This document shows, in pieces, positions 16,638 to 21,175 of a DNA stretch of 64,000 nucleotides. The translations under genes were made by a program, and so were the position numbers. The number at the start of each line of letters is the position of its first letter. Positions within the stretch are counted from its first letter, which is position 1. Source of the stretch: Sporomusa sphaeroides DSM 2875. Lineage in GTDB: Bacteria; Bacillota; Negativicutes; Sporomusales; Sporomusaceae. Below the pieces are notes generated by a model. The model was not told the origin of the DNA. It saw nothing but the letters and a program-made list of their open reading frames with translations, and did not search any database. The DNA lies in NCBI RefSeq assembly GCF_001941975.2, contig NZ_CP146991.1, positions 576,501 to 640,500 of the forward strand, read 5' to 3'.

Positions 16638-16869
16638 AGTAGTCCGTCAAGTCTAAAGCCATAGGATGAATTGCGCGAGATTTTTCGTCCAGCAAGGCGG
16701 AGGAGCCGCGCATATCGGACATATGTAAGGCGACGATAAAGTAAACACGGTTTGTGCCAAGCGATAGCGACAGCAGAAACCGATGTTGCCCTTATGCCTC
16801 GTGGGCCAACGAAGCTGGGCGGAAAATCTCGCGATAAGAACACTGTGGATTTGGGCTTGGCGGACTACT
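16638..16869. repeat. Dispersed palindromic repeat, long form (copy B)
   Basis: 232 bp bounded by AGTAGTCC and GGACTACT, with terminal inverted repeats of roughly 30 bp (…CAAGTCTAAAGCCATAG against CTGTGGATTTGGGCTTG…). Compared with the 66-67-bp short form, an extra block of about 165 bp sits in the middle, itself bounded by an inner inverted repeat (GCGAGATTTTTCGTCCAGC against GCTGGGCGGAAAATCTCGC). It nearly equals the reverse complement of copy C at 30363. It ends 5 bp before the ribosome-binding site of brnQ. The reading frames seen across it are by-products of the repeat. Confidence 0.85.
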
Positions 16870-16887
16870 CTAAAGGAGGACATATTG

Positions 16888-18237
16888 TTGGAAGTAAAGA
16901 AACTGTCGTTCCAAGATACATTGGCGATTGGCTTAATGTTATTTTCGCTTTTCTTTGGCGCCGGGAATCTGATTTTCCCGCCGGCTTTGGGACAAGCGGC
17001 AGGCGAGAATGTCTGGGTTGCTATTTTAGGCTTTTTGACTACCGGTGTCGGCCTTCCCTTATTAGGGGTTTTGGCCATCGGTTTGTCCGGCAGCAATGAT
17101 GCAGGGGATTTGGCCAAGAGGGTTCACCCGCTTTTTGCCACTGTTTTAATGGTGAGCACCTATCTGACCATTGGCCCTTTATTTGCTATTCCCCGTACAG
17201 GTGCGGTGTCATACGAAGTTGGCGTTAAGCCGTTTGTGGCAGGCGCCAGCGATGGCCTGGGCCTGCTTATCTATTCCGTTATTTTCTTTGCGGTTACCTG
17301 TTGGTTGGCGCTAAATCCCAGCAAAATTGTCGACAGGGTTGGCAAGATATTAACCCCGGCGCTGTTAGTTATGCTGGTTTTCCTGGTGGGGCAAGCCTTC
17401 ATCAGCCCTATGGGTGCCCCGTTGGCGCCTCAGGGAGAGTATCAAAGCCATGCTTTTGCCAAAGGCTTTCAGGAAGGCTATTTAACCATGGACACGCTGG
17501 CCTCGATTGTTTTCGCGATTATTGTTGTGAATGCCATTAAGAGCAAGGGTGTCAGGAACGCTAAAGAGATTGCCAAAGTATGCACCGGCTCCGGTTTAAT
17601 TGCTGCATTTTTCCTGGGGGCCATCTATGTGTCTTTGGCCTATCTTGGCGCCACCAGTGTGGGGACCATCGGGCAAGCCGAGAATGGCGGCATAATTTTG
17701 TCCAAGGCAGCTAATATCTATTATGGTTCAGCCGGTAATTTGATTTTAGGATTGGCGATCATCTTTGCCTGTTTAACAACCAGTATTGGTCTGGTATCTG
17801 CCTGTGCTACCTTTTTTACCAGATTTTTCCCGCGTCTTACGTATCAGAACCTGGTATATATACTGTCGATCTTTAGTCTGGTGATTTCTAATGTTGGCTT
17901 AACGCAGCTCATTGCGTTTTCTGTACCGGTATTGATTGGCATTTATCCTTTGGTAATTGTTTTGATTTTCCTGGTATTCCTGGACCCGCTGTTTGGCGGC
18001 CGGACAGAGGTTTATCGCTATAGCATGCTTTTGACTGCGATTGTTAGTCTTGTGGACGGATTAAAGGCGGCTAACATTTCGCTAGGTTTTGTTACCAAGT
18101 CTTTTAGCAGCTATCTGCCGCTGTTTGACATTAGTCTTGGCTGGCTGATACCGGCTGTCGCCGGCGCGGTATTGGGATATATTATCTCCCTGCTTTTTTC
18201 AGGCTCATCGGAAGTGAGTCCCGAACAGATCCGGTAA
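16888..18237 (+). CDS. brnQ: Branched-chain amino acid:cation symporter
   Basis: 449 residues with about 12 membrane segments. The N-terminal block LAIGLMLFSLFFGAGNLIFP is the hallmark of the LIVCS/BrnQ family, which takes up Leu, Ile and Val with Na+ or H+. The start is TTG 16888, 7-8 bp after GGAGGA; the longer frame upstream runs through repeat copy B and is not used. As a branched-chain amino acid carrier it is a natural CodY target, but I see no clear CodY box upstream because the repeat fills that space. Confidence 0.95.
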   Translation: MEVKKLSFQDTLAIGLMLFSLFFGAGNLIFPPALGQAAGENVWVAILGFLTTGVGLPLLGVLAIGLSGSNDAGDLAKRVHPLFATVLMVSTYLTIGPLFAIPRTGAVSYEVGVKPFVAGASDGLGLLIYSVIFFAVTCWLALNPSKIVDRVGKILTPALLVMLVFLVGQAFISPMGAPLAPQGEYQSHAFAKGFQEGYLTMDTLASIVFAIIVVNAIKSKGVRNAKEIAKVCTGSGLIAAFFLGAIYVSLAYLGATSVGTIGQAENGGIILSKAANIYYGSAGNLILGLAIIFACLTTSIGLVSACATFFTRFFPRLTYQNLVYILSIFSLVISNVGLTQLIAFSVPVLIGIYPLVIVLIFLVFLDPLFGGRTEVYRYSMLLTAIVSLVDGLKAANISLGFVTKSFSSYLPLFDISLGWLIPAVAGAVLGYIISLLFSGSSEVSPEQIR

Positions 18238-18274: not shown

Positions 18275-18315
18275 AAGAAGGACAGAGCTTAGTACAAGCT
18301 CTGTCCTTCTTATTT
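18275..18315 (+). terminator. Terminator of brnQ
   Basis: AAGAAGGACAGAGCTT and its exact complement close on AGTAC, followed by a T-rich run. Confidence 0.92.
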
Positions 18316-18495: not shown

Positions 18496-18527
18496 GAAAT
18501 AATGTAACATAATTAGTTTATGTTACA
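18496..18527 (+). repeat. Palindromic recombination-like site, left copy
   Basis: A 32-bp sequence whose last 25 bp are TGTAACATAA-TTAGT-TTATGTTACA: two perfect 10-bp arms around an asymmetric 5-bp centre. An identical copy in inverted orientation lies at 19387-19418. Arms of 10-11 bp around a short spacer are the layout of tyrosine-recombinase core sites. The bases between here and the integrase remnant (18528-18620) hold nothing else recognisable. Confidence 0.8.
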
Positions 18528-18620
18528 CAATTGCATAAGGACTAATAATACTAGATTCAACCATTTATTGCAATTTCCTCCTCTTTCGACAAGATTGTTT
18601 CCCAGCAATAAAGTTTTGGG

Positions 18621-19177
18621 TTATAGATTTAAGTTTTTATAAATATTATCTAAACTATCTTTCGTAATTCCTATATAAGCTAATGTTATAGCAGGAGTGG
18701 AATGATTAAGCAGTTTTGAATTTGAGTTATGTCTGCGCCATTTTATAGGCCCAATAACCAAATGTTTTGCGCAAGGTATGTGAACCAATTGCCTCTGTAA
18801 TACCGGTCATACGTGCTGCTTTATTAATTACTCTGTAAGTTTGTATCCGAGTAATCGCCTGATTATTTTTTTTTTGCTTTTAAACAGCCAGTTACTATCA
18901 ATTTTAGTATTCGTAAAATATTCTTGAATAGCATCCTTACATGTATCTGAAAGGGAAATCTTTTTGGTTTACCGGTTTTCTTTTCACGCAGAATGATGCG
19001 ATCTACTTCTTTTACATCCTCGATGGTAAGCGATAATAAGTCTGAAATTCTCAAACCGCTGTTAATACCTAAAACAAACAGTAAATAATTACGCAAATTA
19101 TGGTTTCTCAGATAACATTTAATGGCATTAATTTGTTCTTTACTACGGATTGGTTCAACGCATTCCATACTAATCAC
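18621..19177 (-). pseudogene. Degenerate tyrosine recombinase/integrase
   Basis: The N-terminal 80 or so residues are intact (RSKEQINAIKCYLRNHNL, then GINSGLRISDLLSLTIEDV with the first catalytic Arg). After GKPKRFPF the frame is lost, but the rest can be followed in other frames: SLSDTCKDAIQEYF, NNQAITRIQTYRVINKAARM, IGSHTLRKTFGYWAYK (HxxR motif), NGADITQIQN and LLNHSTPAITLAYIGITK (catalytic Tyr) ending near 18621. At least four frameshifts are needed, several at A or T runs. The intact ancestor would be about 185 residues, a catalytic-domain-only recombinase like FimB-type invertases. Sequencing error in homopolymers could account for some of the breaks. Confidence 0.85.
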
Positions 19178-19386
19178 ATCCTGATTGTTAATATATGTAC
19201 CAATTTAATATGTTATGGCGAAAAGCTGGGAAATACCTTGTAACATTGCGTAAGAGTTTACCTAATCAGCTGCATAGCCTGCCGTAATATTGATGAATAC
19301 CTCATATCCCATCAGCTATGTCATCATAGGGCAATGGATATGAGGTATCTGTTTGTTTAATGCCATACTGGACAACCGGAAAAAGA

Positions 19387-19418
19387 TGTAACATAAACTA
19401 ATTATGTTACATTATTTC
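19387..19418 (-). repeat. Palindromic recombination-like site, right copy (inverted)
   Basis: Exact reverse complement of 18496-18527 over 32 bp; the central 5 bp read ACTAA on the plus strand instead of TTAGT, so the two sites are in opposite orientation. It ends about 65 bp before the start of the chemoreceptor gene and so could carry or position its promoter. Confidence 0.8.
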
Positions 19419-19483: not shown

Positions 19484-21175
19484 TTGAAGATGAATTTGCT
19501 AAGTAAAATGATTGCTTACTTCATGCTGGTGGTAATCGTAGGAGCGATTGGTTTCGGTTTTGTAATGTACAATGTCAATATTGCCGGAGAGTTAATCACT
19601 AAAACCGGCGGGGAGGACATCCCGCGATTAATACAAACTGCGGAGATTGCCAGAGGTATAGAAAACAAGTTTGCTTCACTCCGTGGCTATCTTATATCCG
19701 GGGATTCGGTGTCGCTTAATAATTTTCGGCGAGTGACGGCAGAAAGCGAAAAGCTTGAAAAAGAGCTGTTGGCTACCGCACGTACGGCAGAAGGCAAAAA
19801 AATCGCAAGTGAATTATTGGCACTGGATGCCAAGTACACAGAGATAGCCGAAAAGGCAGTTATTACCTTAAAGCAGGCAGGCAAAGAGCAGGAAGCTCTG
19901 GCGGTAATGAACGGCGAGCTTACGGATCTTGGCCGGCAATTGCGGGATAAAGCCAAGGAATATGTGGATTGGCGGCAGGAGCAAATTAATGAGTCTATAA
20001 ATAAGTCAGTAACGGCCGCCGACAATAGCGGCAAGGCTGCTGTGACCGCCGGTTTGTTAAGTGCCCTTTTTGGTGTTGGCATCGGCATTTTTGCCGCCCG
20101 CAGCATCTCCCGTCCGGTCAACCAGCTGGCGGTAGTGGCCCAGCAGGTGGCAAGCGGAGATTTGACGCAGCAGGTAAGGGTGGTAAGTCAGGATGAGATT
20201 GGCCAACTGGCGTCAGCCTTTAATACGATGGTTATAGAGCTTAAAACACTTATCAAGCACATTAACGCCAATGTCGAGCAGGTAGCCGCCTCGTCGGAGG
20301 AACTAACCGCCAGCTCGGAGCAGTCTGCTCAGGCAGCTAATCAGATTGCTGTTTCCATCACCGAGGTGGCCGCCGGCGCCAATGAACAAATGGCTGCAAC
20401 TGACGAAACTTCTGCCGTGATTCAGCAAATGACGGCAGGTGTCCAGCAAATGGCCGCAAGTGCTAATCAGGTTGCCGCCCAATCGTCCCAAGCGGCGGAT
20501 AAAGCCAAAAACGGCGGCGAGGCTGTGGACAAAGCGGTCAGCCAGATGGCCCGGATTGAAGATACTGTCAACACCTCGGCAGCGGTAGTGGCTAAACTGG
20601 GTGAAAGGTCTAAGGAAATTGGCCAGATCGTGGATACCATCTCCGGCATTGCCGGTCAGACAAATTTACTGGCGCTGAACGCCGCCATCGAAGCAGCCCG
20701 TGCCGGCGAACAAGGTCGCGGCTTTGCTGTCGTGGCGGAGGAAGTACGAAAACTTGCCGAACAATCTCAGGAGGCAGCTAAAAAGATTGCCGCCTTAATC
20801 GGGGAAATCCAGGGAGATACCGCGAAGGCCGTGGTGGCCATGAATGACGGTACCCGGGAAGTCAAGACCGGGGCCGAAGTGGTCAATACCGCCGGCGGTG
20901 CTTTCAGTGAAATTGCTGATTTGGTGCTGCAAGTGTCTGCTCAGGTAAGAGATATCTCGGCAGCCATTCAGCAGATGGCAGCCGGCAGTCAGCATATCGT
21001 AGGAGCGGTCAAAAAGATTGATGAACTCAGCAGGAAATCAGCGGGTGAAGCCCAGGGCGTCTCGGCAGCTGCCGAAGAGCAGCTGGCTTCCATGGAAGAA
21101 ATCGCAACCTCCAGTGAAGCCTTAGCAAAACTTGCGCAGGAGCTCCAGACAGCGGTGGTCAAGTTTCGTGTGTGA
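19484..21175 (+). CDS. Methyl-accepting chemotaxis protein
   Basis: 563 residues from TTG 19484 (AAGGAGG 9 bp upstream); ATG 19490 and ATG 19445 are alternatives. First membrane helix about 8-30; an extracytoplasmic four-helix-bundle sensor (about 31-185); second membrane helix about 187-207 ([20 protein letters not shown]); HAMP about 208-262; then the signalling domain with the invariant hairpin tip [20 protein letters not shown] and [20 protein letters not shown]. It sits in the inner membrane and controls CheA. It immediately follows the recombinase remnant with its inverted sites. Confidence 0.95.

Follow-up and report, generated by a model that had tools for sequence, protein, structure and literature searches.

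Within the 64,000-nucleotide stretch of the Sporomusa sphaeroides DSM 2875 genome analysed here (the window), two sites in opposite orientations flank a broken tyrosine recombinase gene, with a gene for a methyl-accepting chemotaxis protein (MCP) reading away on one side and a gene reading toward the segment on the other (Table 1). A pattern scan of the window recovered the two sites as 25-bp elements (TGTAACATAA-N5-TTATGTTACA), a pattern that, with up to three mismatches, gave 0 matches in 100 shuffles, and their inverted identity spans 32 bp (18496-18527 versus 19387-19418, converted from locus coordinates). Both results confirm the identical inverted 32-bp pair around a recombinase remnant that a first-pass annotation of this DNA had described. 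That annotation was right about palindromic arms and an asymmetric centre, but relatives favour 8-bp arms and a 7-bp spacer over its 10-bp arms and 5-bp centre; likewise, the right site does lie close upstream of the chemoreceptor gene, but at 78 bp from the ATG rather than about 65 bp.

Table 1 Features of the locus (window coordinates) and contig ends at sites in related draft genomes.
Feature	Position	Strand	Remarks
Other-side gene, reading toward the cassette	16783..18237	+	Presumably branched-chain amino acid carrier-like; followed by a terminator-like hairpin, 18275-18311
Left recombination site	18503..18527	+	8-bp arms GTAACATA/TATGTTAC, spacer ATTAGTT; inside the 32-bp inverted identity
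Inner left cassette end	18528..18620	-	Carries an outward promoter-like motif in many relatives; would point away from the MCP gene in the window
Broken tyrosine recombinase gene	about 18621..19168	-	Four frame-changing indels versus an intact relative; falls within the bracketed clade on its first 70 residues
Extra segment, about 128 bp versus L093	19259..19386		Placed by alignment, approximate; between the right site and the recombinase promoter region
Right recombination site	19387..19411	-	Same spacer, opposite orientation; target-side (MCP-side) site
Target gene, methyl-accepting chemotaxis protein	19490..21175	+	HAMP 71 bits, MCPsignal 173 bits; ATG 78 bp from the right site
Contig ends at sites	G001:C63, G085:C117, G085:C43, G089:C359, G091:C4, G103:C29, G103:C68, G158:C6

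The remnant matched Pfam Phage_integrase at 33.5 bits (109.6 bits for the recombinase of an intact relative) and differs from the intact copy L093 by four frame-changing indels within its coding part, in line with the at least four frameshifts claimed earlier; the window copy, being broken, encodes no intact recombinase. Its earlier description as FimB-like holds for size only: intact relatives reached 55-59 bits on NF007370 and NF007371, two models for tyrosine-type DNA invertases that we take to be of the FimB/FimE type, below the curated cutoffs of 221-222, and two proteins run against the XerA/XerC/XerD models (NF040815, TIGR02225 and TIGR02224) reached 72-108 bits, below cutoffs of 220-335. 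Compared with L093, the window cassette is longer by about 128 bp in the part that separates the gene from its right site, and these extra bases contain a 24-bp imperfect hairpin (19297-19320/19325-19348); the idea that they are a repeat was rejected, with no convincing second copy in the genome. The inner left end contains TGTCGAAAGAGGAGGA (18576-18591) and, across 18528-18620, no match to the strict promoter-like motif described below. A sigma-70 scan of the region was uninformative (7 matches versus 5.5 expected), and TGTCGAAA-AGGA, which we took as a candidate box of the Spo0A type, had 9 matches in the window (3.9 expected) and was rejected as a genome-wide promoter or Spo0A-type box, its 7 loose genome matches comparing with 12 for a reversed control.

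A recombinase search of 380 genomes of the class Negativicutes returned 47 matches in 31 genomes, which, together with the window copy and four weaker or broken Sporomusa copies, made up 52 fetched loci. An inverted pair brackets the recombinase gene in 26 of these, window included; one site is cut by a contig end in two of them (L108 and L112), leaving 24 complete pairs, and another cassette cut by a contig end (L110) was treated as unbracketed in the locus and neighbour counts and as bracketed in both trees. In a preliminary test on a smaller, overlapping set, full pairs scored 20-33 and shuffles at most 16. The family site is 23 bp long (GTAACAYA-N7-TRTGTTAC with variants; 8-bp arms and a 7-bp asymmetric spacer). 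Because arms are identical in 14 of the 24 complete pairs, the window's included, the perfect identity of its two sites is no special hint of trans action or recent decay, as had been proposed. Mismatches within the complete pairs fell on 11 of 384 arm positions and on 0 of 168 spacer positions; 14 distinct spacers occur among the loci, matched in 24 of 24 pairs, and none of 20,000 permutations matched all pairs. Tyrosine recombinases require a matching overlap region for strand exchange, and the within-pair spacer match is what such a requirement would predict.

Several site features were observed besides. Upstream of the recombinase start codon in bracketed loci (for example, L135 and L113), a conserved TATA-like stretch has a GTAACATA half-site next to it, which suggests that the recombinase might control its own promoter. 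Some sites (in L108, L097, L102, L115 and L151) extend into long locus-specific palindromes, which in cassettes continue past the arms for up to 19 bp. A second Sporomusa cassette (L135; G005:C1:1059255) also has an interrupted recombinase, and its two sites are identical.

The bracketed recombinases also group by descent. In a first tree of 46 rows, which left out 6 of the 52 loci as broken or partial, the 25 bracketed recombinases lay on one side of one branch (support 96/68, the SH-aLRT of the clade being 68), and bracketing required 1 change versus 15.5 in shuffles. In a second tree, from which 8 of the 52 loci were left out (two for long branches) and to which the window's first 70 residues were added, the bracketed group of 26 rows again lay on one side of a branch (97/95), with the window fragment next to L093 (87% identical). 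A search of 398 genomes of the phylum, aimed at cassettes outside the class, gave matches in 11 (E ≤ 1e-55, a threshold that misses weaker relatives), one of them the window's own genome; the flanks read at the 10 loci from the remaining genomes contained no bracketed cassette with an MCP or HD-GYP neighbour. One of the phylum loci (L187) has a single cognate-like site, and in another (L185, from G588) an unrelated 53-bp inverted repeat brackets a related recombinase, perhaps a different self-enclosed element.

Scripts identified MCP and HD-GYP genes by their sequence motifs, and Pfam was run on five neighbours (MCPsignal in the window MCP and L096, HD domains in L113 and L123, and sigma-70 regions in L097). 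By script, the nearest gene reading away from the cassette was an MCP or HD-GYP gene in 20 of the 26 bracketed loci, a count raised to 22 by L100, where a spurious open reading frame (ORF) masks the MCP gene, and by L123 (Pfam). Contig ends interrupt L112 and L114, whose scaffolds carry an HD-GYP or MCP gene farther on, beside another copy of the site; in L099, another ORF, presumably transposase-like, stands between cassette and MCP gene; and the L097 cassette (G103:C12) faces a gene for a sigma-70-type factor, so that a single switch may govern several genes. Among unbracketed loci (L110 set aside), 0 of 25 had an MCP or HD-GYP neighbour reading away, and the background among other ORFs of 150 aa or more was 6 of 158; the Fisher test of bracketed versus unbracketed neighbours (p = 1e-10) ignores shared ancestry, and such p-values overstate the evidence because many loci are orthologues that were counted separately. 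HD-GYP genes start 11-46 bp from the site in eight loci (L092, L102, L105, L111, L113, L151, L169 and L174), which therefore have little room for a promoter outside the segment. The HD-GYP genes of L095, L104 and L123 and most MCP genes lie farther from the site; the MCP genes mostly start about 80-420 bp away and may have their own promoter.

The same sites also occur without the enzyme. Among the matches listed, 13 inverted pairs, 172-239 bp apart, have no recombinase between them; their spacers are identical in 12 of the 13 (L175 differs at one edge position). All 12 readable pairs have one neighbour, an MCP or HD-GYP gene, that points outward and another that points inward to the pair; the remaining pair (L176) is cut by a contig end. 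If these pairs flip, a recombinase must therefore act on them in trans.

Both orientations were found in relatives only. Between two genomes of one genus (G082 and G083, genus g39), the flanks are 92.4% and 95.5% identical, and the cassette is 95.6% identical only when inverted (49% otherwise). A recombinase-free segment behaves similarly, L152 being inverted relative to L167 and L170 (80% and 77% identity inverted and 49% as is, with flanks at 67-74%). Hence, the suggestion in the first-pass annotation of a fossil inversion switch beside a chemoreceptor gene is borne out by relatives, in which the cassette is conserved, lies beside MCP and HD-GYP genes and is seen in both orientations, and the caveat attached to it, that no strain might show inversion, does not apply to them.

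What the segment would bring to its neighbour is suggested by its ends. A motif, [AG][AG]GGA followed after 14-19 bases by CG[TA]A[AT], is frequent at the inner end that follows the recombinase stop codon and occurs in 15 of 27 inner segments versus 0.24 expected from other fetched DNA; this enrichment shows conservation rather than providing an independent test, because the motif was defined on the same loci. The strict motif is absent from 12 of the 27 inner segments, the window's included, and also from the window's nearest relatives (L092-L094). In the recombinase-free pairs, a slightly looser motif is directed toward the target in only one of 12 (L152) and away from it in the other 11. 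Orientation and hairpins were analysed for 22 of the 26 cassettes (without L099, L108, L112 and L114) and 12 of the 13 recombinase-free pairs (without L176), and the orientation was assigned as OFF in 30 of these 34 loci and as ON in four. In the 30 OFF loci, the target-side stem was longer as found than flipped in 27, equal in 3 and shorter in none, with mean folding energies of -22.9 as found versus -14.2 kcal/mol flipped, although energy slightly or clearly favoured the flipped form in four (L098, L105, L115 and L123). In the four ON loci, flipping lengthened the stem in three and shortened it in none (-14.2 versus -27.3 kcal/mol flipped). Stem extensions of at least 6 bp occurred in 13 of the 30 OFF loci as found and in 0 of 30 flipped, and stems that were terminator-like by a simple rule in 11 of 30 and 0 of 30, respectively. 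A terminator scanner made calls toward the target in the OFF loci L151, L169 and L170 and none in the ON locus L152, which is the L167/L170 locus inverted; in L167, its terminator call was confined to the strand that reads away from the target, and in L169, the far-side site can be terminator-like too. Because motif direction and stem or terminator predictions differ between orientations, we infer an OFF state with the motif directed away and, in part of the loci, a predicted terminator, and an ON state with the motif directed toward the target and no terminator. The window's target-side stem extension is only 2 bp and its copy is not terminator-like; with the strict motif also lacking, its regulatory parts may have decayed too, or may belong to a variant, given that its nearest relatives lack the strict motif as well.

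These observations are consistent with the following mechanism. Two inverted 23-bp sites enclose a segment that, in living relatives, carries the recombinase gene, and the recombinase would exchange strands within the spacer so that the segment inverts (the change of orientation comes from comparison, the catalysis is presumed). In the putative OFF orientation, the motif would be aimed in the direction opposite to the neighbouring MCP or HD-GYP target, and the other end of the segment would pair with the target leader across the site, forming a longer hairpin predicted to be terminator-like in part of the loci; inversion to the putative ON orientation would aim the motif at the target and break the hairpin. 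The additional recombinase-free pairs before other MCP and HD-GYP genes would presumably be flipped in trans. By such flipping, the cassette in relatives probably switches chemoreceptor and signalling genes on and off, and we conclude with considerable confidence that the window contains a defunct, self-contained DNA inversion switch of this kind, in which an internal recombinase would have inverted the segment and so put an MCP or HD-GYP neighbour into putative OFF and ON states. The switch is now most likely locked, in the orientation taken to be OFF, because the window recombinase has decayed and the two close relatives encoded in the same genome (the intact paralogue L119 and the second-contig copy L138) fall outside the bracketed clade.

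Continued flipping of the window switch by the intact paralogue (C1:4647291-4647836), acting in trans, is possible, not indicated, and on balance unlikely. A search of the genome for further palindromes and an intact paralogue, proposed in the first-pass annotation, gave one additional place beyond the window pair (C1:4647977; 25-bp pattern, up to three mismatches), and it lies beside that paralogue; the reversed control pattern also yielded one place in the same genome, so the third site is notable only for its location. This cognate-arm site lies about 142 bp upstream of the intact gene, and trans action is plausible in a family whose other genomes have pairs without a recombinase of their own, but the paralogue lies outside the bracketed clade and its single site carries another spacer (AGTTAGT versus ATTAGTT in the window). 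The paralogue's site was also considered as one end of an integrated element and rejected, with no second copy in the genome at up to three mismatches. Elsewhere in this genome, on the 59-kb second contig (G000:C2), a different inverted pair, TATGTATAGTACGATACA (L006:617-638 / 1291-1312; 1 base different over 22), lies beside a related recombinase and brackets a gene, presumably metalloprotease-like, whose start codon falls inside the site; this pair is a second candidate switch in the same genome.

A further alternative is that the inversions are rare evolutionary rearrangements rather than ongoing phase variation. Most assemblies do show one orientation, assigned as OFF in the large majority of analysed loci, but one assembly (G085) has the same 79-bp stretch from a cassette end joined to each of the two flanks, one of the junctions lying beside a gap, and eight contig ends in six draft genomes fall inside a site or within 3 bp of one (Table 1). 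These ends were noted as they were met, with no estimate of chance; they would be expected if both orientations were present in the sequenced DNA, with sequencing loss at hairpins as the other explanation. In Sporomusa acidovorans, a 23-bp match beside a gap forms a similar junction, which suggests both orientations in one assembly, with only about four bases that discriminate. Propionispira raffinosivorans was rejected as proof of both junctions, the 11 bp visible beside a gap being ambiguous through a local palindrome. We regard purely rare rearrangement as improbable.

An insertion sequence-like mobile element, with terminal inverted repeats and the tyrosine recombinase as transposase, would share the small unit, the single gene and the inverted ends, and a single genome can carry two cassettes (G310). 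Recombinase-free pairs of the same sites, however, precede the same kinds of gene, which argues against the ordinary insertion with terminal repeats that the first-pass annotation had itself raised; inversion is observed in relatives, MCP and HD-GYP leaders are preferred, spacers within pairs are conserved at least as well as arms, and no direct repeat was seen by eye at the ends of the window cassette, all of which makes such an element very improbable. That the palindromes are operators of a transcription regulator, with the recombinase incidental, is scarcely credible: near-perfect palindromes do stand upstream of a gene and the GTAACATA half-site recurs in the recombinase promoter region, but the window's genome has only its two sites and the paralogue's, too few for the widespread operator once envisaged, the sites are paired, spacer-matched, oppositely oriented and orientation-variable in relatives, and, among the matches listed, many unpaired sites upstream of unrelated genes were not seen, so that the operator was rejected because sites are few and mostly paired. 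With the inversion switch as the preferred reading, we lean slightly toward a two-tier inversion regulon in Negativicutes, in which the self-flipping cassette, itself a switch, would also flip small promoter/terminator segments in trans before several chemoreceptor and HD-GYP genes.

Parts of this arrangement have known counterparts. In the Hin switch of Salmonella, as here, the recombinase gene lies inside its own invertible segment; Hin is a serine recombinase with a flagellin target, whereas the cassette enzyme belongs to the Phage_integrase tyrosine family. FimB and FimE of Escherichia coli are tyrosine recombinases of catalytic-domain size that act on inverted repeats to invert the fimS promoter from outside the segment; the cassette relatives fall well below the invertase model cutoffs. 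In Clostridia, the available text of PMC5903667 reports read-pair inversion signals beside an MCP gene (Anaerotignum propionicum), an HD-type phosphodiesterase gene (Desulfitobacterium dehalogenans) and chemotaxis genes (Clostridium thermocellum), signatures that, like the window family, lie near MCP or HD-type genes; that text describes no recombinase family or site like those of the Negativicutes cassette, and the main text makes no mention of Sporomusa, Pelosinus, Veillonella, Megamonas, Selenomonas or Negativicutes. The same source gives an 844-bp putative invertible segment of Providencia stuartii that encloses a recombinase ORF, as here, but lies near a fimbriae locus and has 14-bp imperfect repeats (PMC5903667). 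A median of 11 invertons per genome is reported for Firmicutes_C, 'primarily Negativicutes-like' gut bacteria, with tyrosine recombinase genes near inverton groups, in the available text of PMC11892184, the main text of which contains neither 'Chemotaxis' nor 'Megamonas'.

Two further counterparts are switches of Clostridioides difficile. For cwpV and RecV, the available text of PMC2784873 gives a 195-bp segment, an OFF state modelled as an intrinsic terminator at the repeat junction and expression in about 5% of cells; unlike in the cassette, the promoter lies outside the segment, the recombinase is encoded elsewhere and the target is a cell-wall protein. In the family, terminator-like hairpins are predicted for 11 of 30 OFF loci as found (0 of 30 flipped), the window copy being without one. 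The 174-bp invertible promoter upstream of the c-di-GMP phosphodiesterase gene pdcB, OFF in the published R20291 orientation, differs from the family in its EAL-type enzyme, in lying 840 bp from the gene and in a recombinase left unidentified there, according to the available text of PMC9286219. Inversion signals near MCP and HD genes in Clostridia and invertons in Negativicutes-like gut bacteria were thus known already, as far as the available parts of these sources go, whereas the open-licence literature searched held no description of the cassette's recombinase clade or of its site.

Phase variation is known mainly for surface structures, and the recombinase clade described here appears, across a bacterial class, to be tied instead to sensing, namely to chemoreceptors and enzymes of the HD-GYP type. 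Searches with the 23-bp site discriminate well enough (90 matches in 25 of the 30 genomes with such recombinases, versus 1 for a reversed control) for candidate targets to be predicted from sequence, so that the regulon of a genome can be read off and tested. The turning of a promoter and the breaking of a terminator would, if the proposed mechanism holds, be coupled in one inversion, and, if the two-tier regulon is real, each cell would draw its own combination of receptors and c-di-GMP enzymes.
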